Assembly (NCBI GenBank): GCA_022565595.1
Contig: JAIUML010000033.1
Span: 1 to 42,426, forward strand
DNA length: 42,426 bases
DNA from: Saccharospirillum sp.
GTDB lineage: Bacteria; Pseudomonadota; Gammaproteobacteria; Pseudomonadales; Natronospirillaceae
Direction: 5' to 3'
The translations under genes were made by a program, and so were the position numbers. The notes under the pieces were generated by a model. The model did no database searches, had not been told where the DNA came from, and saw nothing but the letters and a program-made list of their open reading frames with translations. Positions within the stretch are counted from its first letter, which is position 1. The number at the start of each line of letters is the position of its first letter. Of the stretch, positions 24,163-41,287 are shown piece by piece.

Positions 24163-25409
24163 GATTGCTCCTCGTACTTGATGTGATAGCTATAAACAAT
24201 GCCGATGACTAAACTCAAAATATATATGCCAGAGTCATAAAAGATGTACTGCTCAAAAAAGCTCATGATTAAAAAATAGACAAAGAAAAGCACTGAGAAT
24301 ACATATACATCTTCAGGCAATGCTTTTTTCATAAAGTACAACCTGGTCGCAGTTGAGCCGATCCAATAGGCAAAGGCAGCATAGAAAGCTATGCCTAATA
24401 GACCAAAAGTGATCCACAACGACAAATAGGAATTGTGTAAATGCCCATAACTGGAGAGATGAGCAGGCGCTCCATCTCTGTTCTCAATGATATAGGTTTC
24501 ACCCCTACGATCCCAACCTAAAAAAGGTCTGTCCCAAAAGTGCTCCAAGCCAATTTTCCAGAGCTGAAAACGTATTCCGATACTATTTGCCGGGATCGAG
24601 TCCAAGTCTTCTTCCATCAAATGCTGAATACTGGAGAATTCTACGGCAAACCGTGATGTTAATCTTTCAGTCGCAGGAAGGTTCAAGAAAATCAGAAACA
24701 TTAAAGCCACACAAATACTTACAACAAACCTTACTCTATTACTCTGCTTTCTAATGCTCCAAAAGAACAGCAAAGGCCCTACTACAACCAAAGCCATTAT
24801 TCCAGCTCTCAATTGAGTGAAAACAAAAAGGATCAACAAGATTGAGAGTGTGCAAAGCCACACTACAAATCGTGGCCATATATAGCCTCCTGCTGTCACC
24901 AGTCGATTAAAGAATACTATCATTGCCAAAATACCAGCACCTAACAACATCCCGGAGTGTTGGGCGTTGACAATGCCGAACCCTACTCTCCTTCCGGCAA
25001 ATCCCTGACGTAATTCTTCAATGCCATTACCCATTGACCATGGTATGAGCAAAAGCGAGGCAATAAAGGAAACTAGAATCCAACTTAGTCGGTTACTTTC
25101 ACCACGAATAGCCAATGCAATAGGGAGAAATACAAATATTGAGGTTAGTACCGCAGGTTTAGGGTATGTACTAGCAGCCTCATTTAGGTCAGTGTAAATA
25201 CTCCACCATGAAAGTATCGGCAAAAGAATAGCAGCAGAGAGGAATAGAAGCAGAACTTTCCTTGAATAATTACCAATAAAGTATGCATATATACCCAAAA
25301 GCCCTAAAAAGATAATGATGACATCTTGAAAACTTCCAAGAAAGAAAAAACCACTGCAAAAAATAAGCACCAAAAAAAACAGTGATAAATCAAGATATTT
25401 ATTAGCCAA
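24159..25409 (-). CDS. waaL: O-antigen ligase-like membrane protein (WaaL/Wzy superfamily)
   Basis: This 416-aa protein has about ten to twelve hydrophobic helices and the Wzy_C-type large periplasmic loop (about 245-330). Residues matching the ligase pattern are Arg201 (TQLRAG), Arg280 (GIRFQLWKIG) and the histidines in GHLHNSYLSLW (His323, His325). WaaL joins undecaprenyl-linked O-antigen to core-lipid A. Because Wzy polymerases share the fold, assignment rests on the HLHNSYL motif, the core-type glycosyltransferases downstream, and the presence of another Wzy-like protein at 31390-32655. A 148-bp gap separates it from the upstream dehydratase gene. Confidence 0.7.
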   Translation of the reverse strand: MANKYLDLSLFFLVLIFCSGFFFLGSFQDVIIIFLGLLGIYAYFIGNYSRKVLLLFLSAAILLPILSWWSIYTDLNEAASTYPKPAVLTSIFVFLPIALAIRGESNRLSWILVSFIASLLLIPWSMGNGIEELRQGFAGRRVGFGIVNAQHSGMLLGAGILAMIVFFNRLVTAGGYIWPRFVVWLCTLSILLILFVFTQLRAGIMALVVVGPLLFFWSIRKQSNRVRFVVSICVALMFLIFLNLPATERLTSRFAVEFSSIQHLMEEDLDSIPANSIGIRFQLWKIGLEHFWDRPFLGWDRRGETYIIENRDGAPAHLSSYGHLHNSYLSLWITFGLLGIAFYAAFAYWIGSTATRLYFMKKALPEDVYVFSVLFFVYFLIMSFFEQYIFYDSGIYILSLVIGIVYSYHIKYEEQS

Positions 25410-25557: not shown

Positions 25558-27504
25558 TTAATGAACCGATTTTTTATCAATACCCTTCTCGGGTGCTTTT
25601 TCAGCAACTCCACTCAACAAGTCCGCTAACGGTGAACTGGGCTTAAACCCTTTGATTGCCTTCTCCAATATCCCCCTGGCAGATAATGCATCCTGTGTTT
25701 GCTCAGCAACAACCAAAGCATCCAGAAAGGCATTCAAGGTTTCTACCGGAAGTAATTCCTCATTAGCTCGCATAATTTTGGGATGTGCAGTACCGGATAC
25801 AGCCTCACCAATCAATAGCTCTTCATAAAGCTTTTCACCGGGACGCAAACCCGTGAACTCAATCTCAATATCTCCCTCCGGGTGCTCCTCTGACTTTACA
25901 TCATACCCGCTAAGTTCAATCATCCTTCGGGCAAGATCGACAATTTTGACTGGAGCCCCCATATCCAGCACAAACACATCGCCACCCTGTCCCATCGCGC
26001 CGGCCTGCACTACAAGTGATGCAGCTTCGGGAATGGTCATAAAGAAGCGTGTGATGTCTGGGTGGGTAACCGTAACTGGGCCACCTCGACGTATTTGCTC
26101 CCTGAACAGAGGAACAACAGATCCTGAGGATCCAAGTACATTACCAAATCGGACCATGGAAAACACCGTCTCAGATTCAATAGCAAGGTTCTGTACTACC
26201 AGCTCCGCCATGCGCTTGGTCGCTCCCATCACATTGGTGGGCCGGACAGCTTTATCTGTCGACACCAGTACAAAATGACCAATACCTGCATGTTTAGCTG
26301 CCTCTGCCACTACACGAGTACCCATCACATTGTTTCGAATGCCCTCAAATACATTGTGTTCAACCAATGGAACATGCTTATAAGCTGCGGCGTGGTAAAC
26401 GGTATCTACCTTATACCGATGAAACACCTCCTGTATCCTATGGGCATTACACACTGACCCCAGAATTGGCACAAGTTGCACTCCATGAAAAACAACATGT
26501 TCGTTGTTCTTCAACTCGCTCTCGATCTGATACAACGCATATTCACTTTGTTCGAACAATACCAGCGTACTAGGCCCCGCTTTAACAACCTGTCGACACA
26601 ACTCGGATCCAATAGAACCGCCAGCACCGGTTACAAGTACAACTTTATAGTGAATACAGGCATTGAATAGTGCCGTATTGGCTGGCACTGGATCTCGCCC
26701 TAACAAATCCTCCAGTTCTACTTCCTGCAGTTGATCGACACTGGCTTTACCCGACACGATATCGGGCATAGAAGGGGTCGTTTGCACATGAACAGAAAAC
26801 GGTTCAAGGTGATCCAATATCGCTTTGCGCTGCTTTTTGGTTGCGTTGGGCGTAGCCAACAGTACTCGTTTAATACCGTATTGACTGATAAGCGTTTCAA
26901 GCTCTTTCGGGTTGTACACCAGAATGCCCTGAACGCTGTGCTTCCATAGCGCTGAGTTGCTATCCAAAAAAGCCACGGGTATAAACTCTTTCCCTTTCTG
27001 CAAGGCTGAGGCCAACTGAGCACCAGCGCTACCTGCACCAAAAATAGCGACCGGTTCCTTATTGGTATAATGACGGGACAGCCACTGGTAAAACGTCCTG
27101 ACAAGCATTCGGCTACCACCTACCAGCGCAAACAAAACCAGCCCAAAAATAACAGGGATGGATCGAGGAAAGCCACTTAACCGAGCAACAAAGGCGAATG
27201 ACCACAATATTAACGCCAAAAGAACAGAGCCTTTAACAATAGCCATGAATGCCTGCCCACTCATAAAGCGAACAATGGCTCGGTACAGCCCCAGTCGTGC
27301 AAAAATGAAAATACCCACTGGTATGATTAGCGGAAACAACCACCAAAATCGATCAATATAATACTGTGGCCACCAGTCACTAAAACGCAACGCCCAGGCA
27401 GACCAGAGCGCAAATGGAATAATCACCACGTCTGCAGCGACCATAATCCACTTTTTATGTGAACGGCGAAGGGCAACCATTCGCCTTCGAAGCTTTCTTC
27501 TCAC
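25558..27504 (-). CDS. wbpM: WbpM/CapD-type nucleotide-sugar 4,6-dehydratase
   Basis: This 648-aa membrane enzyme has four N-terminal helices (about 18-135), a first nucleotide-binding domain (GAGSAG, 156-161) and a C-terminal extended SDR domain with GAGGSIG (293-299). The catalytic STDKA (415-419) and MGATK (426-430) follow, where methionine replaces the usual tyrosine as is normal for WbpM-like long dehydratases. It would convert UDP-GlcNAc to the UDP-4-keto-6-deoxy sugar that is the precursor of QuiNAc or FucNAc. It follows the phosphoglycosyl transferase by 12 bp, the same neighbourhood as in Pseudomonas wbp-type loci. Confidence 0.9.
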   Translation of the reverse strand: MRRKLRRRMVALRRSHKKWIMVAADVVIIPFALWSAWALRFSDWWPQYYIDRFWWLFPLIIPVGIFIFARLGLYRAIVRFMSGQAFMAIVKGSVLLALILWSFAFVARLSGFPRSIPVIFGLVLFALVGGSRMLVRTFYQWLSRHYTNKEPVAIFGAGSAGAQLASALQKGKEFIPVAFLDSNSALWKHSVQGILVYNPKELETLISQYGIKRVLLATPNATKKQRKAILDHLEPFSVHVQTTPSMPDIVSGKASVDQLQEVELEDLLGRDPVPANTALFNACIHYKVVLVTGAGGSIGSELCRQVVKAGPSTLVLFEQSEYALYQIESELKNNEHVVFHGVQLVPILGSVCNAHRIQEVFHRYKVDTVYHAAAYKHVPLVEHNVFEGIRNNVMGTRVVAEAAKHAGIGHFVLVSTDKAVRPTNVMGATKRMAELVVQNLAIESETVFSMVRFGNVLGSSGSVVPLFREQIRRGGPVTVTHPDITRFFMTIPEAASLVVQAGAMGQGGDVFVLDMGAPVKIVDLARRMIELSGYDVKSEEHPEGDIEIEFTGLRPGEKLYEELLIGEAVSGTAHPKIMRANEELLPVETLNAFLDALVVAEQTQDALSARGILEKAIKGFKPSSPLADLLSGVAEKAPEKGIDKKSVH

Positions 27505-27516
27505 AAATTTATCCCA

Positions 27517-28071
27517 TTATTCGCTCTTGACTCGATCGCCAGCCCCTTTCCCGGTAATCGTCAAAACGATGTACATAAAATAGTACTTTAAAGTCAGATT
27601 ATCGAGCATTTTTTGATCTGTTTCTGCGAGCAGTTCAGGCGTAGACATATCTATTTTATTGACTTGAGCCAAGCCGGTTATACCGGGCCTTGCCTCAAAT
27701 ACACCCTTTTTGGCACGAGCCGCTGTGAGCTCGACCTGGTTAAAAAGCCCAGGTCGTGGGCCAACCAGGCTCATCTCTCCTTTAAGCACATTCCACAATT
27801 GAGGCAACTCATCCAATTTTGTTCGCCTCAAGAAATTACCAAAAGGCGTAATAGACGAACTACTGGCTAGATGACTAGCGACAGACGCAGTGCCAACCTT
27901 CATGGTCCGAAACTTCACCAGAGTGAAAGGTTTCTGGTACCGCCCTACCCGCTCTTGCCGGAATATTGGCGAGCCTGTGTCAAAAAAGCCAATGATAGTA
28001 AGCAAGAGAAATACAGGAAAGCCGAAAACAAGCCCCATCAAAGAAAACACAAGATCCAGAATACGAATCAC
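27517..28071 (-). CDS. Small initiating phosphoglycosyl transferase (PglC/WreU-like)
   Basis: This 184-aa monotopic phosphoglycosyl transferase has an N-terminal reentrant hydrophobic segment (about 7-30), FRQERVG and LVKFRTM, the catalytic Asp87-Glu88 (TKLDELPQ), and GEMSLVGPRPG. It transfers a sugar-1-phosphate from UDP-sugar to undecaprenyl phosphate, starting the repeat unit. The flanking SDR and WbpM genes suggest that the first sugar is QuiNAc, FucNAc or a relative. Length is that of the minimal catalytic family (about 180-200 aa), without the WbaP-type membrane extension. Confidence 0.88.
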   Translation of the reverse strand: MIRILDLVFSLMGLVFGFPVFLLLTIIGFFDTGSPIFRQERVGRYQKPFTLVKFRTMKVGTASVASHLASSSSITPFGNFLRRTKLDELPQLWNVLKGEMSLVGPRPGLFNQVELTAARAKKGVFEARPGITGLAQVNKIDMSTPELLAETDQKMLDNLTLKYYFMYIVLTITGKGAGDRVKSE

Positions 28072-28087: not shown

Positions 28088-29035
28088 TTAAAAACAACGC
28101 TTCAACCCCTCTTCTACTGAGACAGGAGGCTCCCACTCCAACACATTTCGGGTTTTAGAAATATCTAATTGCAAAGAGCCCAACAAACGCTGTGCCACTG
28201 CTCTTTTACCAAGCAAGGTTGCACCCACCATCAACAATCTTTCAGGCACAGGAACTAGACGGCTAGGCTTACCCATTGCCTCAGCAACACCACGCATCAA
28301 TCCCGTAGTAGAAAGGTCATGCCCATCACTAACCAAAAAAATTTGATTCGCAGCTGCAGGATGGTCAATGCATCTGATGATCAGGTCTACAAGGTTATCA
28401 AGAGCAACCAATGACCGTAGATTGTTTACCGCACCAAATGGCAGAGGTAGGCCTTTTTCGATCAATTTGCTCATGGTAGCAAAGTTCCCTTTTACTCCCG
28501 GGCCGTATACCAGCGGTGGGCGGACTATAACTACTTCCATTCCGGTTTCAACGGTCAGCTTCTGAAGTCCATATTCAGCTTCGAGCTTTGAAAGCCCGTA
28601 ATGGTCTTCAGGTCGAGGAGTATCGTCTGCGGCAAAAGGCTTATCATCTGGCGTATGCTCGCCATTTACTTTGATGGAACTGATAAAAATAAAGCGCTTA
28701 ACACCAGAGGCTGCTGCCTGACGAGCAAGATTTAGCGAACCCTCCACATTCACTCGTCGGTACTCAGCCAATGGATCAATAGTTTCATCTTTCATGATAT
28801 GAGCACGCGCTGCCGCATGTACAATAACCTCCACATCGGCTAACGCAGCTCTCCAGTCAGTGGTATCGGATATATCACCTACCTGAACCGCATCAAGATC
28901 TTGTGAGGGACATTCACAAACACGCAAGGCAGCACGAACCTTTTTCTGAGAACTCTCTTTCTGTAAGCGTGTTAGCAACTGTTTACCTACAAAACCATTA
29001 GCACCCGTAATCAACACTCGCCCATTTACTTCCAT
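28088..29035 (-). CDS. NAD-dependent SDR, likely UDP-4-keto-6-deoxy-HexNAc reductase/epimerase
   Basis: This 315-aa extended SDR has GANGFVG (11-17), Ser119-Ser120 (FISSIKVNG), and catalytic Tyr146/Lys150 (HYGLSKLEAEYGL). It resembles the WbpV/WreQ group, which reduces the keto sugar made by WbpM-type enzymes to UDP-QuiNAc. A 4-epimerase role is the alternative. The ATG at 29035 is chosen: it sits 1 nt after the stop of the upstream glycosyltransferase (TAA-G-ATG). A longer reading frame to 29164 overlaps that gene and is not supported. The phosphoglycosyl transferase begins 16 bp downstream. Confidence 0.82.
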   Translation of the reverse strand: MEVNGRVLITGANGFVGKQLLTRLQKESSQKKVRAALRVCECPSQDLDAVQVGDISDTTDWRAALADVEVIVHAAARAHIMKDETIDPLAEYRRVNVEGSLNLARQAAASGVKRFIFISSIKVNGEHTPDDKPFAADDTPRPEDHYGLSKLEAEYGLQKLTVETGMEVVIVRPPLVYGPGVKGNFATMSKLIEKGLPLPFGAVNNLRSLVALDNLVDLIIRCIDHPAAANQIFLVSDGHDLSTTGLMRGVAEAMGKPSRLVPVPERLLMVGATLLGKRAVAQRLLGSLQLDISKTRNVLEWEPPVSVEEGLKRCF

Positions 29036-29036
29036 C

Positions 29037-30170
29037 TTATTTAGAATCATTCGCCAACAACTCCTTGTATATCGCCATATGCTGCTCAACAATAATATTA
29101 ATAGCGAATGCTTTCTCAGCCAGTTTGCGCCCAGCCGTGCCCATTTCACGTCGCAATTCAACATTTTCTAATAAGCTCTGAATAGCATCAGCCAACGCAC
29201 TGGAATCACGAGGTGGTACTAAAAGGCCCGTTTCATTGACAGTAATAGCATCACGGCAACCGGGTACATCTGTAGTTACAACGGATCGACCACAAGCCGC
29301 TGCCTCTACCAAGCTTTTAGGTAGACCTTCTCGATAAGAAGGCAAGCAAACTATATGAGAAGCAGAATATAGATCTGCAATGTCCGTACGATACCCAAGC
29401 GCTTTTATAACGCCTTCTTGTTCCCATTCTTTAATCTTGCCTACTGTAACACTGCTAGGATTACCGACGTCTGGTGAGCCTATCAACCAAAACTCAACAT
29501 CGAAATCACGTGCACGAACCAACCGTGCAGCTGCGATAAACTCCTCCACACCTTTATCTTTCAATAAACGAGCAGCCATAGACACAACAAGTCTTCCTTC
29601 AGATTCGGAAACGAAAGGATAGTCATCAAGGTCAACACCAGAACCGCGAATTATTCTAGCTGATGATGAAGACAAAGCTCTTATCGTCAACAGTGTAACT
29701 CGGTCATCGGGGTTCTGAAAAATTACCGTGAGCTTTCGATGTTTGAATGCAGCCCGATACAAAACGCTTACAACGGACTTCCGAAAGCGAGCAAAGAATG
29801 ATCTTGCCATGAATACTGTTCCAAGACCAGAAACGGCAGCCACCACAGCCTCCACTCCAGCAAGACGAGCGGCGATGCCGCCATACAACACGGGTTTAAT
29901 AGTAACCAAGTGCACCAGGTTTGGTCTAACTCTGCGAAAAAGGAAAAAAAGGCGGAAGAGCGTTTTAATTTCACTATATGGATTTTGCCCACTTCGTGAA
30001 AACGGTATGATGTGGTGTGTAAGCCCGAAGCTTTTTATACGCCCGACCTCAGGTCCATCAGCCGATGCAATATGCACCTCATAGCCTAACGCTTGTGCTT
30101 GAAGCGCAATTGGGAGACGGTGCGACAGGAAAAACTCCGGTGCATTCACCACCAGCATAATTTTCTTCAA
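29037..30170 (-). CDS. Family 4 glycosyltransferase (PglA/WbpX-like layout)
   Basis: This 377-aa GT-B enzyme starts KKIMLVVNAPEFFLSHRLPI, contains LVHLVTIKPVLYGGIAAR and VVAAVSGLGTVF, and has the donor motif PSYREGLPKSLVEAAACG with both conserved glutamates. This layout matches enzymes that add the second sugar to undecaprenyl-PP-linked 6-deoxy-HexNAc, such as PglA. It is followed almost directly (1 nt) by the SDR gene. A gap of 98 bp separates it from the upstream glycosyltransferase. Confidence 0.82.
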   Translation of the reverse strand: MKKIMLVVNAPEFFLSHRLPIALQAQALGYEVHIASADGPEVGRIKSFGLTHHIIPFSRSGQNPYSEIKTLFRLFFLFRRVRPNLVHLVTIKPVLYGGIAARLAGVEAVVAAVSGLGTVFMARSFFARFRKSVVSVLYRAAFKHRKLTVIFQNPDDRVTLLTIRALSSSSARIIRGSGVDLDDYPFVSESEGRLVVSMAARLLKDKGVEEFIAAARLVRARDFDVEFWLIGSPDVGNPSSVTVGKIKEWEQEGVIKALGYRTDIADLYSASHIVCLPSYREGLPKSLVEAAACGRSVVTTDVPGCRDAITVNETGLLVPPRDSSALADAIQSLLENVELRREMGTAGRKLAEKAFAINIIVEQHMAIYKELLANDSK

Positions 30171-30268: not shown

Positions 30269-31393
30269 CTATACATCCCAAGCACGATGATAGGCCTTAA
30301 CCATTTTCTCTAAACTGAAGTTTTGCTGCACACGATCTATAGCTTTGGATGAACGACTAGACCATCCTTCAGAGTTATCATCAAGCTCAGTTGCAGCTTC
30401 TAACAGCGCTTCAGCAAAAGCTGAAATATCATTAACAGGAACAACCCAACCCGTCTCACCGACAATATCTGCTGCATCGCCTGCATTAGTCGTGACACAT
30501 GGCGTACCACAAGCCATAGCTTCAGCGAGTACATTTGGAAATCCTTCACCAAAAGAACTTGAAAAAACATGAATGTCTAGAGCATTCATTATAGCCGGAA
30601 TATCCGTTCGCTGATCCAACAGCAGTAATTCCTTTTCGAGTTCTAAATCACCTATCCAACCTACCAACTGCTGATTATCGGGGTTCATATCAGCCCCCAC
30701 CAAGGCACACTTAAAATCGATGCCCATTCCTTTTAGTATATTAAGGGAGTGAAGTAAGCCTTCGTGGTTTTTTTGGATATTAAAGCGGCCAACTTTTCCA
30801 AGAAGTAATGTATCGCTTGATATACCCAGTTCAGCACGCACAAGTTGCCGCGCGCACGGATCAGGTCTAAACTGATCCAGATCATAGCCATTGCCAATAA
30901 CAACCATCTTTGAAGCGTCATAGCCGTATTCAATGTGAACCTGTTTCGCTTTTTGGGCACAACAGATAATTTTTCGAGGAACCCACTTACTTAAAAATGC
31001 ACACGCTTTCGCAACCCAAATGGTCGAGCGCTTGGATTTACCCGGTTCAAGTTCAGAGTGACGAATATTCCAACAAACATTTTTAACACCTGACACGCGC
31101 GCTACCAAACCACCAATAAGATCAGAGTGATACATCCAAGTTTGAACAACATTTGGATTTATTCTTTTAAACAAAAAATATAGCTTTAGAATGTATACTA
31201 ATTTGAGACCGCCTAGATGCATATTTAGATAAAAAACTTTGATTCCAAACGAGTCAAGAATAGGACCATATTTCCCAGGTCCAGTCATGCATATAACAAT
31301 GTGTTCATTAACAGCATCACTTAGGCACAAGCGACAAAGTACTCCTTCGGCGCCACCATCATTCAGGCCAGTTATAACATTAACAACAATCAT
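30269..31393 (-). CDS. Family 4 glycosyltransferase
   Basis: This 374-aa protein has NVITGLNDGGAEGVL at the N-terminus (the GGAE donor/acceptor loop), VVQTWMYHSDLIGG, LLGKVGRFNIQKNHEGLL, and FSSSFGEGFPNVLAEAMACG with the E-x7-E glutamates. It builds the O-unit, with unknown sugar. It is coupled to the upstream Wzy-like gene by a 4-nt overlap. Codon usage is noticeably richer in A and T than in the flanking core genes. Confidence 0.84.
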   Translation of the reverse strand: MIVVNVITGLNDGGAEGVLCRLCLSDAVNEHIVICMTGPGKYGPILDSFGIKVFYLNMHLGGLKLVYILKLYFLFKRINPNVVQTWMYHSDLIGGLVARVSGVKNVCWNIRHSELEPGKSKRSTIWVAKACAFLSKWVPRKIICCAQKAKQVHIEYGYDASKMVVIGNGYDLDQFRPDPCARQLVRAELGISSDTLLLGKVGRFNIQKNHEGLLHSLNILKGMGIDFKCALVGADMNPDNQQLVGWIGDLELEKELLLLDQRTDIPAIMNALDIHVFSSSFGEGFPNVLAEAMACGTPCVTTNAGDAADIVGETGWVVPVNDISAFAEALLEAATELDDNSEGWSSRSSKAIDRVQQNFSLEKMVKAYHRAWDV

Positions 31394-32655
31394 GCTTGCC
31401 TCACAAGCTTATTTGCTCTACAAAAAAAGACCCTCACGAAAACGACAAACAAATAGAACAACAATAGAGAAATCAGAAAATACCTAAGCTGAGTAAAAAT
31501 AAATATTAGATCATTCCTATGAAAATAGAAGGCCAATATAGGAATAAGAGGTGCGAAGAACGGGTAGTACTTAAAAGAAAATCTATTCATTAAAACACTA
31601 ACAAAGTAGACCAAAAGGAGAATAATAGACAGATAGAAATAAGGTCCAAGCTGCCCAAACAACCAATAGCCTTCTGCGAAGAAATTATGTGCCATACCCC
31701 AAGTTTCCCTATGAGCGGCATAGAAGCTATGCGCCTCTTCTCTAAACCTGACTCCGTCACCACCGAACAATGTACGTCCAAAAGGAATACCTGACTTGAG
31801 TATCAGAAAGAAATCTTCTACATTATTATTAGAACGAAAATCATCTGTTGCGACCGCGTTAAGTATTCCCAAAATTGTAAATGGTTCAGACTTAACAAAG
31901 TTACTAGAAAAGGACTCTAACGAGAAAAGGTCAAATATACGATTATATTCACCTCTTAGTATATTGGCATACAATGACTTAAAATTAACCATAGCAACAA
32001 AGAAAAACAAAAGAACAGGAGCAACAAGGAAAGAAAAGAAGTAACCTTTGAAAAATACACTCCTAAACCAGATAGTGAAGTAAACTATGAACGAAAAAAC
32101 AAAGTGTGTTCTTTGACCAGAATAAAGATCCACTAAAAGGGCGAATAAAAACACTAGCAAAAAATATGATCTATAATAGGCTGATAACCCAACCCCTATA
32201 ATTACTGACCACATCCACAAATAGTATAAGAAACCTTGATAATCATAAAAATCGCGCTTAGATCCCTGCGAGCTCACTAGTACGTCATAGTATTGATAAA
32301 TAAAATAAATGGTAAGCAACAACACAAAAAATGAAAGCAGCTTGTAGGCATAAAGAACTGATTGATCTTCGAAAGATACCCCTGAAAAAAACCTGCTTGA
32401 CAACTTGCCGTATATTCCAAATTTGGCGCAAACCGATAAAAAAAAGATCGAAAAAATAGATATAGAGAAAAAAATCAGTACATAGTCATCTAGAGGGATA
32501 TAGCCACGTTCATCAAACCTTGTAGGGTCAATGGTAAAACCATAAAAGACCGGTGAAAAGTAAAAAACAAAAGAAAAGAAGAAAACAAACCAGATATCTA
32601 TTCTTCTGTGTAAAAACAGAAAGTACAGGGAAATCAATAGAGTAAGAATGATCAA
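31390..32655 (-). CDS. wzy: O-antigen polymerase candidate (Wzy)
   Basis: This 421-aa protein is very hydrophobic, with about ten to twelve predicted helices and a large loop around 225-330. It has no close family motif I can name, which is normal for Wzy. Context is the main evidence: it sits between glycosyltransferases in a locus with wzx and wzz, and the loop contains SGQRTHFV and MAHNFFAEGYWLFGQLGP, the type of H-N motif seen in oligosaccharide-repeat polymerases. Coding DNA is strongly A+T-rich. It overlaps both neighbours by 4 nt. Confidence 0.68.
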   Translation of the reverse strand: MIILTLLISLYFLFLHRRIDIWFVFFFSFVFYFSPVFYGFTIDPTRFDERGYIPLDDYVLIFFSISIFSIFFLSVCAKFGIYGKLSSRFFSGVSFEDQSVLYAYKLLSFFVLLLTIYFIYQYYDVLVSSQGSKRDFYDYQGFLYYLWMWSVIIGVGLSAYYRSYFLLVFLFALLVDLYSGQRTHFVFSFIVYFTIWFRSVFFKGYFFSFLVAPVLLFFFVAMVNFKSLYANILRGEYNRIFDLFSLESFSSNFVKSEPFTILGILNAVATDDFRSNNNVEDFFLILKSGIPFGRTLFGGDGVRFREEAHSFYAAHRETWGMAHNFFAEGYWLFGQLGPYFYLSIILLLVYFVSVLMNRFSFKYYPFFAPLIPILAFYFHRNDLIFIFTQLRYFLISLLLFYLFVVFVRVFFCRANKLVRQA

Positions 32656-33788
32656 TTAGTGAGCTCCCGAAATAAATCCTCCCACTCAGTCACCACTTTT
32701 TTCTTATCTAAATTCTTTAGAGTTAAGTCATTATAAAAATACCTATCACTCAAATCGTTTTCTAAAATGTATTTAATTCCTGCTAAAAGCGCATCAGAAT
32801 TTTCAGGCTCGACTAAAAGCCCATTCTTATTATCTACAATTATTTCACTTGGTCCAGTCAAGCAATCAGTACTTACAACTGGGAGGTTATAGGACATTGC
32901 CTCTATAAGTACATTCGGAAAACCTTCATATCTTGAACTAAGAACGAAAGCGGAAGCACAAGAATACCAATCAGAAAGATTACCAACTCGTCCCGGAAAA
33001 ATGAAATTGTCTTCCAAACCTTGTTTTTTTATTTCATTTAGGAAAAAATAACCATAGTCACTTTCTACGCTTAAGTCTAACCCAGCAATAACGAAATAAA
33101 CTGAATCTTTACTAAAACTATTATTTTTAAAACCCTCTATTGCAGCACTCAAAAGCACATCAAAACCTTTTTGTACGAACTTACTTCCTACCGAAAGTAT
33201 TATTTTCTTATTGTCTGTAAATTCTATATAGTCACGTGGATTAACATATGGTTTATTATTAATTAGCGGAAACTCGACTGGGTTCCTGATTACTTTAATA
33301 TCACGTGTTTTTACATTTTTATTTATCCATTCTTCCACTCCAAAGGTCTGAACAACACAACAGTCAGAGAAATAAAACAGATATTTCCTTAGATAACTGA
33401 GAATTATAGGAGTGCTTTGTAGACCAGGGTAGTTTCTTTCTGCCACCACCACCCTTGTGTTCATCTTGATTGTTGAAAGGATTGCAAATATAGATGCATT
33501 TGTCATCATTGACACAACTACATCTACATCATTCTTTTTCAATAAGCGTCTAAGCTTAAAAATAGATGACAGCTTAGATACTATCCTTTTAAAGATATTT
33601 TTGTTTAAATCATATTCAACTATTAACCTACCTACCCTGGAATCGAGCAGATAAAAATCTTGTACATCACTGTATCTGGTTACGATTTTTACTGAGTGTC
33701 CCCTTTCTGATAACTCGTTGGCTAAAATAGTAGTTACTCTTTCAGCTCCGCCACCTCTCAAAGAATTTATAAAAAAAACAATATTCAT
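32652..33788 (-). CDS. Family 4 glycosyltransferase
   Basis: This 378-aa GT-B enzyme has NIVFFINSLRGGGAERVTT at the N-terminus, KIILSVGSKFVQKGFDVLL, and SSRYEGFPNVLIEAMSYNLPVVSTD with conserved glutamates. It resembles family 4 enzymes acting in O-antigen and capsule repeat synthesis. Its coding DNA is among the most A+T-rich in the window, so it was probably acquired with wzy. A 128-bp gap lies upstream. It overlaps wzy by 4 nt. Confidence 0.83.
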   Translation of the reverse strand: MNIVFFINSLRGGGAERVTTILANELSERGHSVKIVTRYSDVQDFYLLDSRVGRLIVEYDLNKNIFKRIVSKLSSIFKLRRLLKKNDVDVVVSMMTNASIFAILSTIKMNTRVVVAERNYPGLQSTPIILSYLRKYLFYFSDCCVVQTFGVEEWINKNVKTRDIKVIRNPVEFPLINNKPYVNPRDYIEFTDNKKIILSVGSKFVQKGFDVLLSAAIEGFKNNSFSKDSVYFVIAGLDLSVESDYGYFFLNEIKKQGLEDNFIFPGRVGNLSDWYSCASAFVLSSRYEGFPNVLIEAMSYNLPVVSTDCLTGPSEIIVDNKNGLLVEPENSDALLAGIKYILENDLSDRYFYNDLTLKNLDKKKVVTEWEDLFRELTN

Positions 33789-33916: not shown

Positions 33917-35086
33917 TTACTTCTCAACTTCTGGTTTCAGTATTGTGCGGAGGGCTCTCGTCAACTGTTCTTGCCCTGCCTCTGCCATACGAGCCATATT
34001 GGTTTTTGCCTTGATAGGTGGATCCCCCTGCAGCTGACCTTCAACCAAAGCCAACCACTGTTCATTCGCCATGTTCACCAAGGCATTCTCACAACCCAGT
34101 CGCTGCAAAAGATCTTCAGCCTTTCCCTGCACACCATCGGTGCTACCAGGCCGCTGCAATACCGCCACTGGATAATCCCCTAGCGACAAAGCAAAAATAG
34201 CTGCGTGGAAGCGGTCCGTAACTATCCCTGACAGACGGCCTCGAATAATTGAGAGTTTCTCTTCGAACGGCCGACGAAGATAGGAGCTATCAACATCCGA
34301 ACCATCACAGTCTCCCAGCATATTAAATATATGCCAACCTCGAGTTTCGAAATAGCGTGCAGCCTCGTTCCGTTTACGATTGTCTCCAATAGCTATACCA
34401 AGAATAGGCTTGTTTCCATGGCCTAAATCCGGGGCTATAGCCTCTTCAGGGACCAGATTACTTACACCATAAATGATTGTAGGATCAGCAATCATTTCAT
34501 GCTCTGCACCCAGGCTCTGAAGCAACTGCGAGGTACTCTGATCTCTGGCGGCAATCCAATCAAACTTTGAAAGCGCCTCGGAAATATTTTTCGAATGCGG
34601 CTCTTGGTAAAGTGATGCGTCGTGCCTATCCGCAGATACGGCTAAAGCGATACGATGAGCAGGCACGTCAAACGGCAAAAAATAGACATTGGGTGGCACC
34701 GGGAGTTCGTTCTTCTCAGACACAGACCAGACTGTGTCTGAACCGACGACTAACACATCCCATTGACCCTTTTTCAACCATTTTTCAATGCGTACAGGTT
34801 GTTCTGACCAACAGGTATGTTTGCTAAATGAAACTTGAGATGCAAGCCATTTGCGCAGATGACGTGTTTTCATAGCCTGCCCCGTATTTAGCCGAACCAA
34901 GGGCAAAAGAAGCTTTATGTACTCTCGCCACTCACGGCGCCAAATTCGGTAATCCAGCACTTCAACTTTATGTTGAAGACCAAGCGTATCCAGCGCCCGT
35001 TCAAGATTACGCACGGTGCATGCTGCCTGAGCCACAGAACCCTCATTGACACTACGATGAAAAGTTAACACACCTACTCGAATCAC
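33917..35086 (-). CDS. Polysaccharide pyruvyl transferase family protein
   Basis: This 389-aa protein fits the polysaccharide pyruvyl transferase family (WcaK/CsaB-like GT-B fold). Features are GVLTFHRSVNEGSVAQA at the N-terminus, VLVVGSDTVWSV, WIAARDQSTSQLLQSLG, and the conserved ITDRFHAAIFALSLGDYPVAV near 295. Members transfer pyruvate ketals from phosphoenolpyruvate to sugars, but many homologues in O-antigen loci have no tested activity. Base composition is closer to the core genome than that of its A+T-rich neighbours downstream. The gap to wzx (208 bp) contains a long hairpin. Confidence 0.78.
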   Translation of the reverse strand: MIRVGVLTFHRSVNEGSVAQAACTVRNLERALDTLGLQHKVEVLDYRIWRREWREYIKLLLPLVRLNTGQAMKTRHLRKWLASQVSFSKHTCWSEQPVRIEKWLKKGQWDVLVVGSDTVWSVSEKNELPVPPNVYFLPFDVPAHRIALAVSADRHDASLYQEPHSKNISEALSKFDWIAARDQSTSQLLQSLGAEHEMIADPTIIYGVSNLVPEEAIAPDLGHGNKPILGIAIGDNRKRNEAARYFETRGWHIFNMLGDCDGSDVDSSYLRRPFEEKLSIIRGRLSGIVTDRFHAAIFALSLGDYPVAVLQRPGSTDGVQGKAEDLLQRLGCENALVNMANEQWLALVEGQLQGDPPIKAKTNMARMAEAGQEQLTRALRTILKPEVEK

Positions 35087-35294: not shown

Positions 35295-36617
35295 CTACTT
35301 TAGAACAAATGCAAACGTCTTTAATCCCGTATGTTTATAAGTTAACCAGACCAATATCAAATTCCAAACAGTTAGAGAGGTCATCGACGCAATGGCTCCG
35401 CCAATGAGGCCATAGTTTGGAATCAAAATTAAAGACAGTGCAATGTTGAGAAATAGAGCGATCACTATTCCTTTTATAGTTTGCTTTTCATGCCCTGTCA
35501 TATTGAGGACCAACGCTACCGAGCCAACCGATGTATTCACGAGTTGGCCTATACAAAGAATCGCCAATGCTGGTGCTGCTTCGATATAGGCCTCACCAAA
35601 CACCCATGAAATCAGCTCTTTTCCCCAGAAGATAAATATTATGGCAACAGGGACCGAGGCAACAAGCACAGCGCGAGTACTCATGGTAATAATTCGCTGT
35701 AGTTTATCAATTTCTCCAGCCCTATAAAGTCGGGCTATCTGAGGTGCCAGGGCCATATTTACAGCCATTAACCCTATGGCTACCAAGCTTGCTCCAGTTA
35801 CCGCGACTCGAAAGTATCCTACTTCTTCAACGGTGGTCAGGAGCCCAAGGAACAGGGTCGTAATTTGCGCATCCATCAACTTCATGCCAGAAAAGAGTGA
35901 CAGTGGTAGCAAGCTTAACCCCCAAGGCTTCAGCGTATAAAGTGGTGGCGACTGCCGAACTTCATTAGGCAATGCCTTGTGAAGTACAACAAGCCCAAAG
36001 AGAAATGCCATCAATGATGAGAGAATTGTGAATTGAACAGCATCGGAAGAAGTCAGTTCTGCACTCATCAAATAGGCAGTGCCCATGAGGAGGACCATTA
36101 CCAGAGGCCTAATTATTTTCTCTGGCAATTGAGAACTGACCACCCACCGCAATCCCCTCAGGGTACCTGTTCTGACGTTTTCGAATGCGATTATCGGTAG
36201 CAGCCATATCGCCCATAGAAATGAGTTGATTTGTGCACTTTCTAGACCACCCCATCGCCACCAGACAAATATGGCAGAAACCAAGGCAGCGACAAGTGAA
36301 TAGCTGAATACAAAAGTATTCGCCAACCTCAGGAGCCCTCGCATCAACCCCCAGTTTCCTTCCTGGTGATTTCTAGCCGTTTCTCGAACCAAAAGTGTCG
36401 GCAGACCCGCCTTGGTTGGCAAGCCAATTACTGTAATGATGGACATCACAAAAGCATAGATCCCGTACTGCTCCGGGCCAAGCATCCGCGCCAGCAAGAC
36501 TCCGCTTACCAGCAACAGCCCCATGTTTAACGCCTTGACAACAGCGGAGCCACCAGCACCGCGCAATAGTTGAGCTTTGATGCCCTCGCCCTTGAAGTGT
36601 CTGATGAGCTGTTTCAA
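35295..36617 (-). CDS. wzx: O-unit flippase of the polysaccharide transporter (PST/Wzx) family
   Basis: This 440-aa integral membrane protein has about twelve helices and family features such as ALNMGLLLVSGVLLARMLGPEQYGIYAFVMS at the N-terminus (residues 29-59) and a C-terminal GLIGGAIASMTSLTVWNLILV. It would flip undecaprenyl-PP-linked O-units to the periplasm for polymerisation. It sits with wzz, wzy and the initiating transferase, so the Wzx/Wzy pathway is complete apart from the known ambiguity of the Wzy call. A 140-bp gap follows the epimerase gene. Confidence 0.85.
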   Translation of the reverse strand: MKQLIRHFKGEGIKAQLLRGAGGSAVVKALNMGLLLVSGVLLARMLGPEQYGIYAFVMSIITVIGLPTKAGLPTLLVRETARNHQEGNWGLMRGLLRLANTFVFSYSLVAALVSAIFVWWRWGGLESAQINSFLWAIWLLPIIAFENVRTGTLRGLRWVVSSQLPEKIIRPLVMVLLMGTAYLMSAELTSSDAVQFTILSSLMAFLFGLVVLHKALPNEVRQSPPLYTLKPWGLSLLPLSLFSGMKLMDAQITTLFLGLLTTVEEVGYFRVAVTGASLVAIGLMAVNMALAPQIARLYRAGEIDKLQRIITMSTRAVLVASVPVAIIFIFWGKELISWVFGEAYIEAAPALAILCIGQLVNTSVGSVALVLNMTGHEKQTIKGIVIALFLNIALSLILIPNYGLIGGAIASMTSLTVWNLILVWLTYKHTGLKTFAFVLK

Positions 36618-36757: not shown

Positions 36758-37753
36758 CTATATATAAAATTTGCGATACCATGCGATGAATTTGTCGACA
36801 CCATATTGCAACTGAGTAGCTGGCTGGTAGCCAGTGGCTTGTTGCAACCTGGAGGTGTCGGCATATGTTATGGGCACATCACCGGGTTGCATACCCATAA
36901 ATCTCTTTTTTGCCGGTTTCCCAGCAGCGGCTTCTATGGCCGCTATAAAGTCCATCAGCTTTACCGGTTTCGAATTGCCGATGTTAAACACTTGGTAAGG
37001 TGCTTTGCTGCTCGCTGGGGTATTTTGTGTCGTTTCAGTTGAAGTAGGGGGCCTATCAGCGCATTGCAACACACCGGTGGCTATGTCATCTATATAGGTA
37101 AAATCCCTTTGCATATTGCCATGGTTAAACACTTTAATGGGCTCACCGTTAAGTATGGCTTTGGTGAACAGGAATGGCGCCATATCTGGCCTGCCCCATG
37201 GACCGTAGACAGTAAAGAACCTTAAACCAGTGGTGGGTAGGTTATAAAGGTGGCTATAGGAATGCGCCATTACCTCGTTTGCTTTTTTAGTGGCAGCGTA
37301 GAGGGACACCGGGTGGTCTACTGGATCATGTTCTGAAAAGGGTTGTTTTTCATTTTCGCCATAAACGGAGCTGGACGAAGCGTAAACCAGATGTTCAACC
37401 TTTTGTTGCCGAGCTAATTCGAGTATGTTCCCAAAGCCAACGAGGTTGGCGTCTATGTATGCGTTGGGGTTTTCTATGGAGTAACGCACGCCAGCCTGAG
37501 CTGCCAAGTGTAGTATTCGGGTGAACTGGTGTTTCTTTGACAGTTCGTCTATGGCCTGGCGGTCTTCTATGCCCATTTTAATAAAGGTGAAATTCTTTCG
37601 ACCTTCCAAGCGGGCCAGGCGGGCTTTTTTTAAGTTGACATCGTAGTAGTCGTTTAAGTTATCGATACCAACTACTTCGTGACCCTGATCTGTAAGGCGC
37701 AGGGCGAGTTCGTTGCCAATGAAGCCTGCTGCGCCGGAAACCAATAATTTCAT
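36758..37753 (-). CDS. UDP-glucuronate 4-epimerase-like SDR
   Basis: This 331-aa extended SDR has SGAAGFIG for NAD binding, GIDNLNDYYDVNLKKARL (the pattern of UDP-GlcA 4-epimerases), AAQAGVRYSIENP, catalytic Ser (YASSSSVYG) and YAATKKANE, and MQRDFTYIDDIATG. It would make UDP-galacturonate from UDP-glucuronate for the O-unit or capsule. The ATG at 37753 is preferred because GGAAG precedes it and the sequence begins MKLLVSG. The in-frame ATG at 37810 lacks support. No UDP-glucose dehydrogenase gene is in the window, so UDP-GlcA must come from elsewhere. Confidence 0.88.
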   Translation of the reverse strand: MKLLVSGAAGFIGNELALRLTDQGHEVVGIDNLNDYYDVNLKKARLARLEGRKNFTFIKMGIEDRQAIDELSKKHQFTRILHLAAQAGVRYSIENPNAYIDANLVGFGNILELARQQKVEHLVYASSSSVYGENEKQPFSEHDPVDHPVSLYAATKKANEVMAHSYSHLYNLPTTGLRFFTVYGPWGRPDMAPFLFTKAILNGEPIKVFNHGNMQRDFTYIDDIATGVLQCADRPPTSTETTQNTPASSKAPYQVFNIGNSKPVKLMDFIAAIEAAAGKPAKKRFMGMQPGDVPITYADTSRLQQATGYQPATQLQYGVDKFIAWYRKFYI

Positions 37754-37830
37754 ACGGATCTTCCGAGTTACTTGCCAATCAAATTGGAAAACTTTACATA
37801 AAACCTGCAATTTTCTGCAGGAATCTTGTC

Positions 37831-38982
37831 TTAGGTTCTTTGCCTTCGATATGCACGAACACTTTGAGCAAAGTAACCAACGAATGTCATCATAAAACCA
37901 ATAAATCCTCCGAGGAAAACACTCACCAGTACAACTAACGATCGACTCCGGCCTGTCGGAAAGTCTGGCTCAATAGCGTAATCCATGACTGTCGTAAGCC
38001 TTTCCGCCGGAGGAAGGTCTTTAAGTCCAGTATTGTTCAAAAATTCACTGGCCTGGATCATTCTGGCCAGACGTCGTTGTGCGGAAAGAGCTTCCTGTGA
38101 TTCCAATATAGCCTCGTTAACAAGTCCATCATTCAAGCTCTCGTTCAGTATATCAGCCTCGGCCTCCAAGGCTTTAAAACCAAAGAAATAGAGCGGTAAC
38201 GCCTCATCACCACTTGAAATATTGGCGTACACAACTTCAGTCCCGGTGGGCTGTCTACCTAATTGCCCCGGTGTCGTAGGCAACTCAATTTCAAGTCTCT
38301 TCGCGATAGTAGCCGCCTGCCTAAGTTCATGCAGACGATGCAGCCGTTGTTCGACAAGCGTTTCTATTTGGTCTTCCAGTCGATTCTCTAGCCGTCTGAT
38401 GCTGGTCTGGTTCTGGCGTTCCAGGGTTGCCAAATAGCCGTGCCACAATGAGTCAGCAGTTTCATTAATGTAAGTATTGAGCAAGGCAGGTCCATTCATA
38501 CCGCTACCATACAGCATCGTTGCTCTCAATCTCATCTCTGCAGTGAGGTCGAACGAAAACCTTTGTGAGAAATATTGCTGCAGACTTTGTGTTGGCTCCA
38601 GATCAACTATTTCAGGATTGCGTTGAATGAACGACTCGAAATTTTGAAAGCTACTAAGGCGATTGGACAGATCTGCAATAACTCTCTCGGGCATCAACTG
38701 GAATCCGGTGATTTCAACGACTCCTCTAGCTGAGCTGGATGCCGCCGATGGAGATGCTACTCTCGTCATCTCATTCATTGTATTGAATTGGTTTGAGGGA
38801 GCAGATATCGCTCTAAATTCAGTTCGAAATTGACTTTCCTGGTTTAGCGCCAAACTAACACCTATCACTGAACTAACGACCAAACCGATGGCAATCCAGT
38901 ACCAACGATCGATAACAATACTGACGATTTCCCGCAAATCTATTTCGTCATTTGTTTGGGTGCTTGTTCCGTGATCTGACAT
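37831..38982 (-). CDS. wzz: Polysaccharide chain-length determinant (Wzz/PCP family)
   Basis: This 383-aa protein has transmembrane helices at about 30-47 and 347-370, flanking a periplasmic domain with long helices rich in coiled-coil-like residues (about 180-250). The N-terminal EIDLREIVSIVIDRWYW is a Wzz-domain hallmark. The C-terminal helix PTGRSRSLVVLVSVFLGG fits the family's proline-rich TM2. There is no cytoplasmic kinase domain, so this is a PCP-1-type regulator of O-antigen chain length and not a Wzc. It is the first gene after the ops element, about 62 bp upstream. Confidence 0.85.
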   Translation of the reverse strand: MSDHGTSTQTNDEIDLREIVSIVIDRWYWIAIGLVVSSVIGVSLALNQESQFRTEFRAISAPSNQFNTMNEMTRVASPSAASSSARGVVEITGFQLMPERVIADLSNRLSSFQNFESFIQRNPEIVDLEPTQSLQQYFSQRFSFDLTAEMRLRATMLYGSGMNGPALLNTYINETADSLWHGYLATLERQNQTSIRRLENRLEDQIETLVEQRLHRLHELRQAATIAKRLEIELPTTPGQLGRQPTGTEVVYANISSGDEALPLYFFGFKALEAEADILNESLNDGLVNEAILESQEALSAQRRLARMIQASEFLNNTGLKDLPPAERLTTVMDYAIEPDFPTGRSRSLVVLVSVFLGGFIGFMMTFVGYFAQSVRAYRRQRT

Positions 38983-39044: not shown

Positions 39045-39056
39045 CACGCTACCGCC
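39045..39056 (-). promoter_or_regulatory. ops element (JUMPStart core) for RfaH recruitment
   Basis: On the minus strand the bases read GGCGGTAGCGTG, exactly matching the E. coli ops sequence where RNA polymerase pauses and RfaH loads. It lies in the untranslated leader 62 bp upstream of wzz, at the head of the 19-kb polysaccharide locus, in the transcribed strand orientation. The bases before it include CTCTGG and CAGTGGCGGTAG, resembling the longer JUMPStart. RfaH would suppress Rho and increase distal expression. rfaH itself is not in the window. Confidence 0.85.
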
Positions 39057-39139
39057 ACTGGATTGGTCTCGTCAATTTCCAGAGAACGCGGCTGTGGGGC
39101 CCGTGGTTGCGGGCTTTCCGGCTGATTTTGAAGGCGCAG

Positions 39140-39166
39140 AGTGTAGCATAGGGTGGGGGTTGGCAA
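39140..39166 (-). promoter_or_regulatory. Weak candidate promoter for the wzz leader
   Basis: On the minus strand TTGCCA (39161-39166) and TACACT (39140-39145) lie upstream of the ops element, with 15 bp between them, which is shorter than ideal. If used, transcription would start near 39133 and ops would lie about 77-88 nt into the leader, as in other RfaH-controlled operons. Confidence 0.25.
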
Positions 39167-39268: not shown

Positions 39269-41287
39269 TCAGGGTTTGGCGATCAGTTTTCGCCAGATGG
39301 GTTGCAGGGCTTTTTTCAAGGGGGTGGTTTGGGGGCGTTTGCGCCATTCAATCAGTTCTTTCAGGGCGTTTTCCGGGGTGGTGTAATGGCCTGTGTTGCG
39401 GCTGATGTAGGTTGGGTAGTGGATGAGGGTGCCGGCGATGAGCTCGTTGAGCGACAAGCGGCGGGTGCGGCGGTTGTTGGGGGTGGTGTCTGTGGTCAGG
39501 CCCCAACCGGCGTAGAAGGGTTGGCCGTAGCAGGTGACTTTGATGCCTCTGAGCAAGGCTTCGAAACCGGTCAGGCTGGTGAGGGTGTGGACTTCGTCGA
39601 CCTGGGTCAGCAGTTGTGCCATGTCGGCCTCGAGCAGGACTTGGTCGCAGTACTGTTGGGCGGCGTTTTCGCCCCGCCCGGCATTGCGCAGGCCGGCGAC
39701 GACGTCCGGGTGGGGTTTGTAGAGGATGTAGGCCTCTGGTGCTTGGGTTCGGACGGCGCGCAACAGGCCGATATTGGTCTTGATATCGGTGGTGCCATAA
39801 CGGATGGAGGCGTCGGTTTCGACCTGGCCCGGTACCAGTATGACCCTCTTGTGGTTTGGCCTTTGCCAGGGGGCCGAAGCCAGGTTGTATTTGGTGATGG
39901 CTTGCTCGACCAGTTGCTGTGCCAGTGCGGCACCGCGTTGCTGCTCTGCCTCGGTAAAGTCGTGGTGTTGCAGGATGTCTTCCAACTCGCTGGGTTGGCG
40001 GGCGTCGTAGTAGATGCCTTTTCGGTCGCGCACCCAGGAAAGTGGCTGAACCAGGTCTGCGCCCAGGCCAACCGAGCGGATAAAGCCATCTTCAAGGCGG
40101 ATAACGTTATAGTCGTCAGGCACGGCTGCCCTGCCCCAGGCGGCGATGGTCTCGCCTTTGGGTACATCGGCCTGTTGTTTCGTAAAGATCACGTCGCTGC
40201 ACTGAAAAAACCGCCTGACAATGGGTTTCTTCCAGTATGAGTACCCCACTGCGTAGACTCTGGGAGGCATTTTGGCGCTTTGCTGGCGCTGCAAGCCCAT
40301 CCATTCCACCAGTGCTTCGGGTGTGCAGGCTTTACCGGTCTCGGGGTGTCGGTACCTGGGGTAAGCAATCAAGGCGGCGCGAATCAGTTGCGCCAGGCTG
40401 GCCGTTCCACGCCGCTCTGGCGCGGGCAAGGCGTCGGTGGTGAGCCCCCAGCCGGCATAAAATGGCATGCCGAAGGTGTATACCGACTTGCCATGCAGCA
40501 ACCCTTCGAAACCCATTTGGGAGGTGACGCAGTAAACGGCTTCGGCTTCCTTGAGCAGCCGCGCTGGGTGGGTGTCTTCCGTCAGTACCTGAATGCGGGA
40601 ATTGGCTTGCAGGGTTGCGGGGTCAAAATGGCCACGCTTTTTGCCGGACCAGACGTCCGGGTGAATCTTGAGCAGTACCGTCGCATCCGGGTGGTTGTTC
40701 AGTGCGGCTTCCAGCATTTGCTGAAAGGAAGCCGCGTTGGCCAGGCCATCGCGGATGGAGGCGTCGCCGTAGGTCTGGTCGACGACCAATACATAGCGAC
40801 CTGGCAGTTCTCCTGAATAATCTCGTTTGTGGTTGTATTTCGATACACCGGCCTCGCACCAGGCCGTTTGAAGTGCCAGAGCACGTCGAGTCTGGGCTTC
40901 GGTTAACGGCTCAGCGATATAACGCTCCAGTGCGGAAGTCCGGGTGGCGTCGTAATAGATGCCGGTGTCGTCGGCGACTATGGAGAGTGGCGGGCACTGG
41001 TAGCCGAGCCCTAATGACCTTAAAAAGCCGTCTTCCAGGCGCCAGCAGGTGGCACCCAGCTTTTCGGCAAGGGCGGCAGCCCTATGCCCGCTTGGTTTGT
41101 TACCCCAGCCAAGGATGACGGAATTTGCAGGTAACTTTCTCTGCCAGGGTTTGAGCGGCAGCAGAGCACAGCCAAAAAATTCGGCCAGGTTGGTTTGGCG
41201 GATAAGGCCAACGGATGCAATAGGGATGAAAAAGCCTTCGGACTGTTGAAACCTCAGGTGATTATTGGTCAAAGGCAAGGATGACAT
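39269..41287 (-). CDS. kpsC: Capsule Kdo transferase KpsC (two-module)
   Basis: This 672-aa protein is made of two related GT-B modules. Each shows RLEDGFLRSLGLG or RLEDGFIRSVGLG (about 82 and 401), a QTYGDASIRDG or QVETDASIRYG block, KIHPDVW or KPHPDVVAG, and TSQMGFEGLL..FYAGWGLTTD or TSLTGFEALL..FYAGWGLTTD. KpsC adds alternating Kdo residues to a phosphatidylglycerol terminus to make the anchor of ABC-transporter-type capsules. No kpsS, kpsF, kpsU or kpsMTED lies in the window. It precedes the ops leader on the same strand and may be a separate unit. Length is normal for KpsC. Confidence 0.92.
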   Translation of the reverse strand: MSSLPLTNNHLRFQQSEGFFIPIASVGLIRQTNLAEFFGCALLPLKPWQRKLPANSVILGWGNKPSGHRAAALAEKLGATCWRLEDGFLRSLGLGYQCPPLSIVADDTGIYYDATRTSALERYIAEPLTEAQTRRALALQTAWCEAGVSKYNHKRDYSGELPGRYVLVVDQTYGDASIRDGLANAASFQQMLEAALNNHPDATVLLKIHPDVWSGKKRGHFDPATLQANSRIQVLTEDTHPARLLKEAEAVYCVTSQMGFEGLLHGKSVYTFGMPFYAGWGLTTDALPAPERRGTASLAQLIRAALIAYPRYRHPETGKACTPEALVEWMGLQRQQSAKMPPRVYAVGYSYWKKPIVRRFFQCSDVIFTKQQADVPKGETIAAWGRAAVPDDYNVIRLEDGFIRSVGLGADLVQPLSWVRDRKGIYYDARQPSELEDILQHHDFTEAEQQRGAALAQQLVEQAITKYNLASAPWQRPNHKRVILVPGQVETDASIRYGTTDIKTNIGLLRAVRTQAPEAYILYKPHPDVVAGLRNAGRGENAAQQYCDQVLLEADMAQLLTQVDEVHTLTSLTGFEALLRGIKVTCYGQPFYAGWGLTTDTTPNNRRTRRLSLNELIAGTLIHYPTYISRNTGHYTTPENALKELIEWRKRPQTTPLKKALQPIWRKLIAKP

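Follow-up and report, generated by a model that had tools for sequence, protein, structure and literature searches.

A 42,426-base stretch of the genome of Saccharospirillum sp. (all 42,426 bases are referred to below as the window) bears, at the head of a cluster of polysaccharide genes, an exact copy of the ops element, the 12-base site that recruits RfaH in Escherichia coli. It is in our judgement very likely that this copy belongs, as its ops portion, to a leader of the JUMPstart type, and that RfaH carries transcription from it through the cluster. The window locus is a sound, ordinary RfaH/JUMPstart-type locus with a long-loop leader, and taken alone it clearly extends RfaH/ops, as could be expected, to a new genus. 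The unexpected part, and the wider pattern that matters more, is the presence of the same ops core at integrons and at some defence loci, as emerges when the window's own genome (G000) is set beside its congeners (G015, G016, G017, G018 and G019).

The ops 12-mer (GGCGGTAGCGTG) is found on the minus strand at 39056-39045, as a single copy in the window, where a mean of 0.01 would be expected by chance (100 dinucleotide shuffles). Its 12 nt read GGCGGTAGnnTn on the coding strand, and they are placed in an untranslated leader, 62 nt 5' of the ATG of a Wzz-like gene that is the first of 16 co-directional genes, which we infer to form one transcript. The first-pass annotation of this DNA had reported both the exact match and its position ahead of a wzz leading some 19 kb of co-directional polysaccharide genes, and these points stand, with the addition that the genes are also low in G+C; its count of 17 genes has to be corrected, as the run from 38982 to 19911 comprises 16 long open reading frames (ORFs). 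The upstream neighbour of the leader, on the same strand, is a capsule synthesis gene (39269-41287; PF05159).

The bare 12-mer is weak as evidence, because the six Saccharospirillum genomes contain 24 exact copies of it against 16 of the same pattern reversed (7 against 2 in the window genome), and it is the context that convinces. By inspection across the six genomes, 20 of the 24 exact copies terminate one of two conserved intergenic leaders, termed here class A and class B, and no leader of either kind accompanies the remaining four (L046, L050, L051 and L055), which overlap long open frames. All seven exact copies of the window genome are preceded by a leader, four of class A and three of class B.

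The class A leader, to which the window site belongs, consists of GTTCTCTGGAAnnnGACGnnACCAATCCAGT followed by ops and was sought only among exact ops matches; its four copies all lie in the window genome, agree in 38 of 46 columns (12 of the 38 being ops itself, their selection criterion) and all head polysaccharide-type genes. The search of the genome for further ops leaders that the first-pass annotation had recommended thus yields three sisters of the window leader, each heading similar genes. Directly upstream of ops, an RNA stem of the JUMPstart type is predicted from the alignment to the Rfam model RF01707 (18.0 bits), from the fold and from covariation over 21 leaders: its 5' arm CUGGA (39078-39082, minus strand) and 3' arm UCCAG (39058-39062, minus strand) enclose a loop of 15 nt, and the 3' arm ends one base before ops (39045-39056). 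The E. coli K-12 rfb JUMPstart presents the same order of CTCTGG, loop, CCAG and ops, with 9 nt between the arms; all 12 bases of the E. coli ops element recur at the window site, which likewise precedes polysaccharide genes within an untranslated leader. A stem had already been reported among JUMPstart elements, as given in the excerpted text of PMC2864571.

The covariation set comprised 21 chosen leaders (the four of class A, 16 from named RfaH loci and that of E. coli), leaving out the 35 class B leaders, L131 (also of class B), L136, whose best stem is a different one with 4 pairs, and L171, which duplicates L153 in the part that was compared. Over this set, 98.1% of the cells of the five-pair stem are paired, against 85.8% in shuffles, and its covariation score reaches 0.330 against 0.120, none of 500 shuffles being as high in either respect, while sliding the stem partner gives a pairing of at most 56.2%; with leaders left out and changes shared between related species, these shuffle counts cannot be read as probabilities. 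These leaders, class B excluded, therefore have a conserved stem immediately before ops, as in JUMPstart. A stem search over 58 distinct leaders gave an only moderate result, since its 200 shuffles were of single bases, with a stem in 46 leaders against a shuffle mean of 29.4 and a maximum of 41.

Several observations nevertheless tell against this reading. The 18.0 bits of the Rfam alignment (39084-39045) are to be set against a cut-off of 35, and a scan of all 42,426 bases at the gathering threshold gives no match to RF01707; under a lax setting the model gives 23.4 bits at one other class A locus (L003), the other two (L006 and L007) are not listed, and neither is any of nine class B loci scanned. 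Two of the five covariation measures exceed their shuffles weakly or not at all: three stem pairs change on both sides, with 21 of 500 shuffles as high, and there are five further stem pair types, with 136 of 500. The leader folds no better than its shuffles (z from -0.23 to 0.21 over three cuts). Among 20 loci, E. coli rfb and one from Kangiella are the only two to attain the gathering threshold, and the E. coli leader itself folds with a z of -0.03, likewise about 0. The folding energy of a single leader, with z about 0, was rejected as evidence of structure and covariation used instead. On its sequence, and because of the low Rfam score, the window leader is a long-loop JUMPstart variant.

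Whether ops is transcribed at all depends on a start upstream of it, and the first-pass annotation had named a start downstream of 39045 as one of the results that would overturn its reading. An extended -10-like sequence (TGCTACACT; 39140-39148, minus strand) ends 84 nt ahead of where ops begins, and a -35-like TTGCCA (39161-39166, minus strand) precedes the -10-like hexamer by 15 nt, a poor spacing. In each of the four class A leaders of the genome a match to TGnTAnnnT starts 64-92 nt before ops, a count made with no shuffle control; the motif occurs in none of the 35 class B leaders. A strict consensus promoter scan reported nothing upstream of ops in the window, which weakens the case; ops is nonetheless probably transcribed, because of this promoter-like sequence, with start sites that remain predictions.

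In the excerpted texts of PMC6391919, PMC5995543 and PMC7593976, the E. coli ops pauses RNA polymerase and forms a hairpin in the non-template strand; RfaH is recruited and opened there, and in turn shuts out NusG and opposes Rho. By this precedent, polymerase in the window would start some 75-80 nt upstream of ops, as judged from the -10-like motif, make a short RNA hairpin and then reach ops, where it would halt and its exposed non-template strand would recruit RfaH. The factor would stay on the polymerase and exclude NusG and Rho through the 16 low-G+C polysaccharide genes, an E. coli-like action that may reach as far as 19911.

Another check suggested by the first-pass annotation, a search for rfaH, has a divided outcome. 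No significant match to RfaH or NusG was found in the window's assembly with models of the NusG domain, RfaH and NusG, or with the E. coli and congener RfaH proteins (best match E 0.58, 22% identity), and a DNA search of the assembly with a congener's rfaH locus returned as its sole match an epimerase gene inside the window. This counts against an RfaH-dependent locus; but nusG, rplK and rpoB were likewise not found in the same assembly, the completeness of which is listed as 99.94, so that the failure to detect rfaH is no proof of its absence and the search decides nothing on that point. An RfaH match is present in all five congeners (139.4-146.1 bits), each with a second, weaker NusG-family match. 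Against the curated cut-off of 144.5 for TIGR01955 (RfaH), one of the five lies above (146.1) and the others reach 139.4-143.9; a second RfaH model gave 128.8 and 118.7 on two congeners, against a cut-off of 124. Four side chains of E. coli RfaH touch ops according to the excerpted text of PMC5995543, namely K10, H20, R23 and R73; K10, H20 and R73 are kept in the RfaH of the five congeners, and the R23 position is occupied by N.

Of 44 named RfaH loci, 18 have an ops core (GGCGGTAG) no more than 350 nt past the rfaH match and on its strand; most of these are of Pseudomonas and relatives and have a class-A-like leader. The leader that follows rfaH in Pseudomonas, in Azotobacter and in their relatives (CGTTYTCAGGA...TCCTGGGGCGGTAGCGTG) shares the CGTT start in most cases and compares with the window leader in its stem, at the same position and with compensated bases, and in having the same ops; it adjoins rfaH itself, whereas the window leader adjoins the capsule synthesis gene. 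A JUMPstart-like leader immediately after rfaH is common in this group, being seen in 18 of the loci L129-L172 (L134, L143 and L168 among them). At the Rfam gathering threshold L134 and L143 give no match, and L168, from Kangiella, does.

The second leader, class B, can be written approximately as TTGGnGTGCCnTGTAACCGGCCG followed by ops, and accounts for 16 of the exact ops copies. A sequence-only model, built from 15 leaders of G000, G016, G017 and G018, recognizes 35 sites, 4-8 in each of the six Saccharospirillum genomes, of which 16 are the already-known exact-ops leaders and 19 are new. Fifteen of the new sites (L086, L102-L108, L110, L111, L115, L119-L121 and L125) belong to G015 and G019, which supplied no model rows. 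Searched with stricter filters in 194 relatives, the model gave weaker matches in two other family members with RfaH, and weak ones in 2 of 172 genomes outside the family. Within the family, and leaving G000 aside, class B matches occur in 7 of the 9 genomes with a strong RfaH match (E < 1e-39) and in none of the 12 without; three of these seven (G016, G017 and G018) supplied model rows, and the independent count is 4 of 6.

The core GGCGGTAGC is present in all 35 class B sites of the genus, and at least nine leaders of the window genome contain it (four of class A and five of class B). The bases that follow are less constant, with 16 sites ending in GTG, 7 in GAA, 6 in GAG and 6 in other triplets: in G015 and G019, each of the 15 class B leaders has lost the final TG of the E. 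coli ops (the pause dinucleotide) and ends in GCGAA, GCGAG, GCGAT or GCTAG instead of GCGTG, while GGCGGTAGC stays. The constancy of the core is partly selection, because the model rows were chosen for an exact ops, and the drift of the last bases is not. A TTG hexamer with a spaced -10-like hexamer is found in 26 of the 35 leaders against 4.5 in shuffles (maximum 10), under a rule devised after viewing the sequences, and the first hexamer stands 72-81 nt upstream of ops in 18 of the 26.

Downstream of class B leaders, at least 9 kb of DNA is available at 26 sites and less at nine, down to 0.4 kb, owing to the end of a contig or of the stretch. An integron hallmark (integrase, attI-like block or attC-like site) is present in 18 of the 35 loci, counting three that have attC alone (L096, L109 and L122) and one with short attI-like matches (L123). 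At seven sites (L013 on G000:C35, L126 on G000:C16, L106, L086, L113, L116 and L117) the opposite strand encodes an integron integrase, whole or fragmentary, with its frame ending 16-373 nt from ops, and the ops leader points through the integrase gene towards the cassettes. The integrases of L013, L126 and L106 score 368, 420 and 407 bits, above the TIGR02249 cut-off of 265, and the fragments at L113, L086, L116 and L117 fall below it. In L106 the start of the integrase gene is flanked on its outer side by a block with a GTTAGG core at its end, which recurs in 12 loci including L106 (in L123 as short pieces only) and in none of five control stretches (the window, L012, L014, L127 and L128); it is read as a putative attI.

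Over whole loci, 43 attC-like sites are found on the leader strand and 4 on the other, against 4.0 in shuffles, and at a stricter score the numbers are 36, 1 and 1.0, respectively; at least one site with a score of 10 or higher lies downstream in 14 of the 35 loci. The finder was home-made and its final rule set after seeing candidates, so that these counts are not blind, and the strand bias (43 against 4) is safer evidence than the counts. Two earlier finders had missed sites visible by eye, and a looser one gave much noise, with 127 sites at score 10 where shuffles had 63. The final finder gives a single site of score 10 in the window, but nothing in L012, L014, L127 and L128; it also gives none at several loci with cassette-like genes (L011 and L124), which were left unclassified. 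These loci share with chromosomal integrons the three integrases over cut-off, the attI-like block and the oriented attC-like sites, and differ from those known in having, outside the integrase gene, an ops leader and a promoter-like pair that point through it towards the cassettes, an arrangement that no paper found in the literature searches describes. The idea that the class B leader is itself an attC was dropped, as attC hits overlap ops in L013 and, under looser rules, in L086, L098 and L010, and not at most sites. Inside the integron region of the window genome, L013 also encodes a reverse transcriptase (1341-2591; PF00078), group II intron-like by inspection.

Class B leaders are not confined to integrons. 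Four of them head exopolysaccharide (EPS) clusters, L097 and L105 with the EPS regulator TIGR04176, and L111 and L118 alike by DNA; in L097 and L118, from two species, the leader stands directly behind rfaH and before the EPS genes, and no integron part was found at either locus. The leader of L098 heads an adenylylsulfate kinase gene. Among the other 12 loci, a few carry known or candidate phage-defence genes: L100 has a Hachiman-type HamA as its fourth gene, L114 a candidate PDC-M49A, L119 a TIR-TGT protein with QueC, and L125 a NACHT protein; the corresponding PADLOC check covered 10 hand-picked proteins, and L112 gave no match. At three orthologous sites of G015 and G019 (L103/L125, L104/L115 and L119/L120) the leader follows the same core gene in both species; this host gene is 83-88% identical and the cargo does not match, except for 122 bases in L104/L115. 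At a fourth (L086/L106) the integrase and the attI-like block are common to both.

In Saccharospirillum, then, the ops core that ends the class A leader of the window also ends class B leaders, which precede cassette arrays of integrons, EPS loci and further accessory genes. This suggests a broader scheme, in which RfaH would be a general expression factor of the Saccharospirillum accessory genome: a promoter-hairpin-ops unit behind core genes would send RfaH-loaded transcription through the integrase gene in antisense, attI and the cassettes, or through phage-defence or polysaccharide genes, with the cargo swapped between species and the leader staying in place. We give this scheme an even chance of being correct. 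A competing view is that the class B leader is a non-regulatory landmark of the integron platform, or of an insertion hot spot, with an incidental ops core, as might be suggested by the seven sites that lie close to where an integrase gene or fragment ends, and by the three orthologous sites that keep the leader while most of the cargo differs. This we consider rather unlikely, given that L097 and L118 have the same leader before EPS genes, that the promoter-like pair far exceeds its shuffle level (the rule being made after looking), and that class B is confined, within the family and apart from G000, to genomes with a strong RfaH match.

At the window site itself, the leader could work as an RfaH site but serve a short unit, a hairpin after the first gene and internal promoters freeing the distal genes from ops. 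A terminator-like hairpin (CCTGCAGAAAATTGCAGG, then TTTT; 37821-37804, minus strand) does lie between genes 1 and 2, promoter-like sites exist within the run, and gaps of 140, 208, 128, 98 and 148 nt at five joints could hold promoters, which speaks against a single long unit. However, 10 of the 15 gene joints overlap or are at most 20 nt apart, and between 19600 and 39400 the promoter-like sites are fewer than in shuffles (21 against 34.6) and the terminator-like sites near shuffle level (23 against 19.7, sd 6.1), so that a short unit appears unlikely. It is less probable still that the leader is real and the strain has lost rfaH, ops now being only a pause site or serving another NusG paralogue. 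The RfaH/NusG searches of the assembly would agree with such a loss, but nusG is essential in general, and as it is not found, together with rplK and rpoB, stretches seem to be missing from the assembly; the genome also keeps the nine or more leaders with GGCGGTAGC. That the 12-mer is a chance match, as its modest excess over the reversed control in the six genomes would allow, is scarcely credible for a site whose upstream leader is conserved, whose stem covaries and which is positioned in the leader of a polysaccharide cluster. An ops site within a JUMPstart-type leader, serving the whole cluster, is thus the reading retained here.

How long, mostly promoterless cassette arrays are transcribed beyond the first few cassettes is an open question. 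If the broader scheme were true, an RfaH loading site at the outer edge of the integron would offer a simple answer to it, and would link antitermination to integrons and defence genes. Nothing linking RfaH/ops to integrons was found in the titles and abstract starts of the open-licence PMC papers listed by the searches, and the word integron is absent from the excerpted texts of PMC13015549, PMC6391919 and PMC7593976.

The cluster downstream of the window site comprises one Wzz-like protein, two epimerases, a Wzx-like flippase, a pyruvyl transferase and seven glycosyltransferases, the rest being a sugar-phosphate transferase, a CapD-like dehydratase, a Wzy_C protein and one protein without family. 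All 16 ORFs run in the same direction, on the minus strand, with gaps of at most 208 nt. Gene 1 (37831-38982) encodes the Wzz-like chain length determinant, with a PF02706 match (E 2.1e-4) of 22 bits, below the gathering score of 25.5, and no NCBIfam match. It is followed by a NAD-dependent epimerase/dehydratase (36758-37810; PF01370, 2.7e-56), the Wzx-like flippase (35295-36617; PF01943, 2.8e-13), the polysaccharide pyruvyl transferase (33917-35086; PF04230, 2.5e-15) and a glycosyltransferase of 33% G+C (32652-33788; PF00534, 2e-33). Next comes a 421-aa protein with no Pfam and no NCBIfam match, Wzy-like by position only (31390-32655), and then two glycosyltransferases (30269-31393, PF00534, 4.4e-27; 29037-30170, PF00534, 1.8e-31). 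The ORF of the second NAD-dependent epimerase (28088-29164; PF01370, 5.4e-34) overlaps its neighbour by 128 nt, and its true start is probably further in.

The distal part contains the undecaprenyl-phosphate sugar transferase (27517-28071; PF02397, 9.1e-50), the CapD/WbpM-like nucleotide-sugar dehydratase (25558-27504; PF02719, 5.2e-125), the Wzy_C/O-antigen ligase family protein (24159-25409; PF04932, 1.6e-20), and four further glycosyltransferases (22996-24162, PF00534, 2.8e-35; 21807-23006, PF13579, 1.3e-14; 21019-21810, of family 2, PF00535, 9.2e-19; and 19911-21035, the last of the run, PF13692, 6.6e-28). The next gene (18849-19895) is on the opposite strand, and from this gene order we infer the far end of the operon to be at 19911. 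The G+C content is 0.34-0.48 in nine 2-kb segments from 20 to 38 kb, whereas the first 14 kb have 0.53-0.57 and the stretch between 38 and 42 kb has 0.53-0.55, a profile that fits a sugar locus gained by horizontal transfer. Past the end of the cluster, two Kdo/WaaP-type kinase-like proteins are encoded on opposite strands (15604-18801), and LptF/LptG-type genes are located at 9998-12342.
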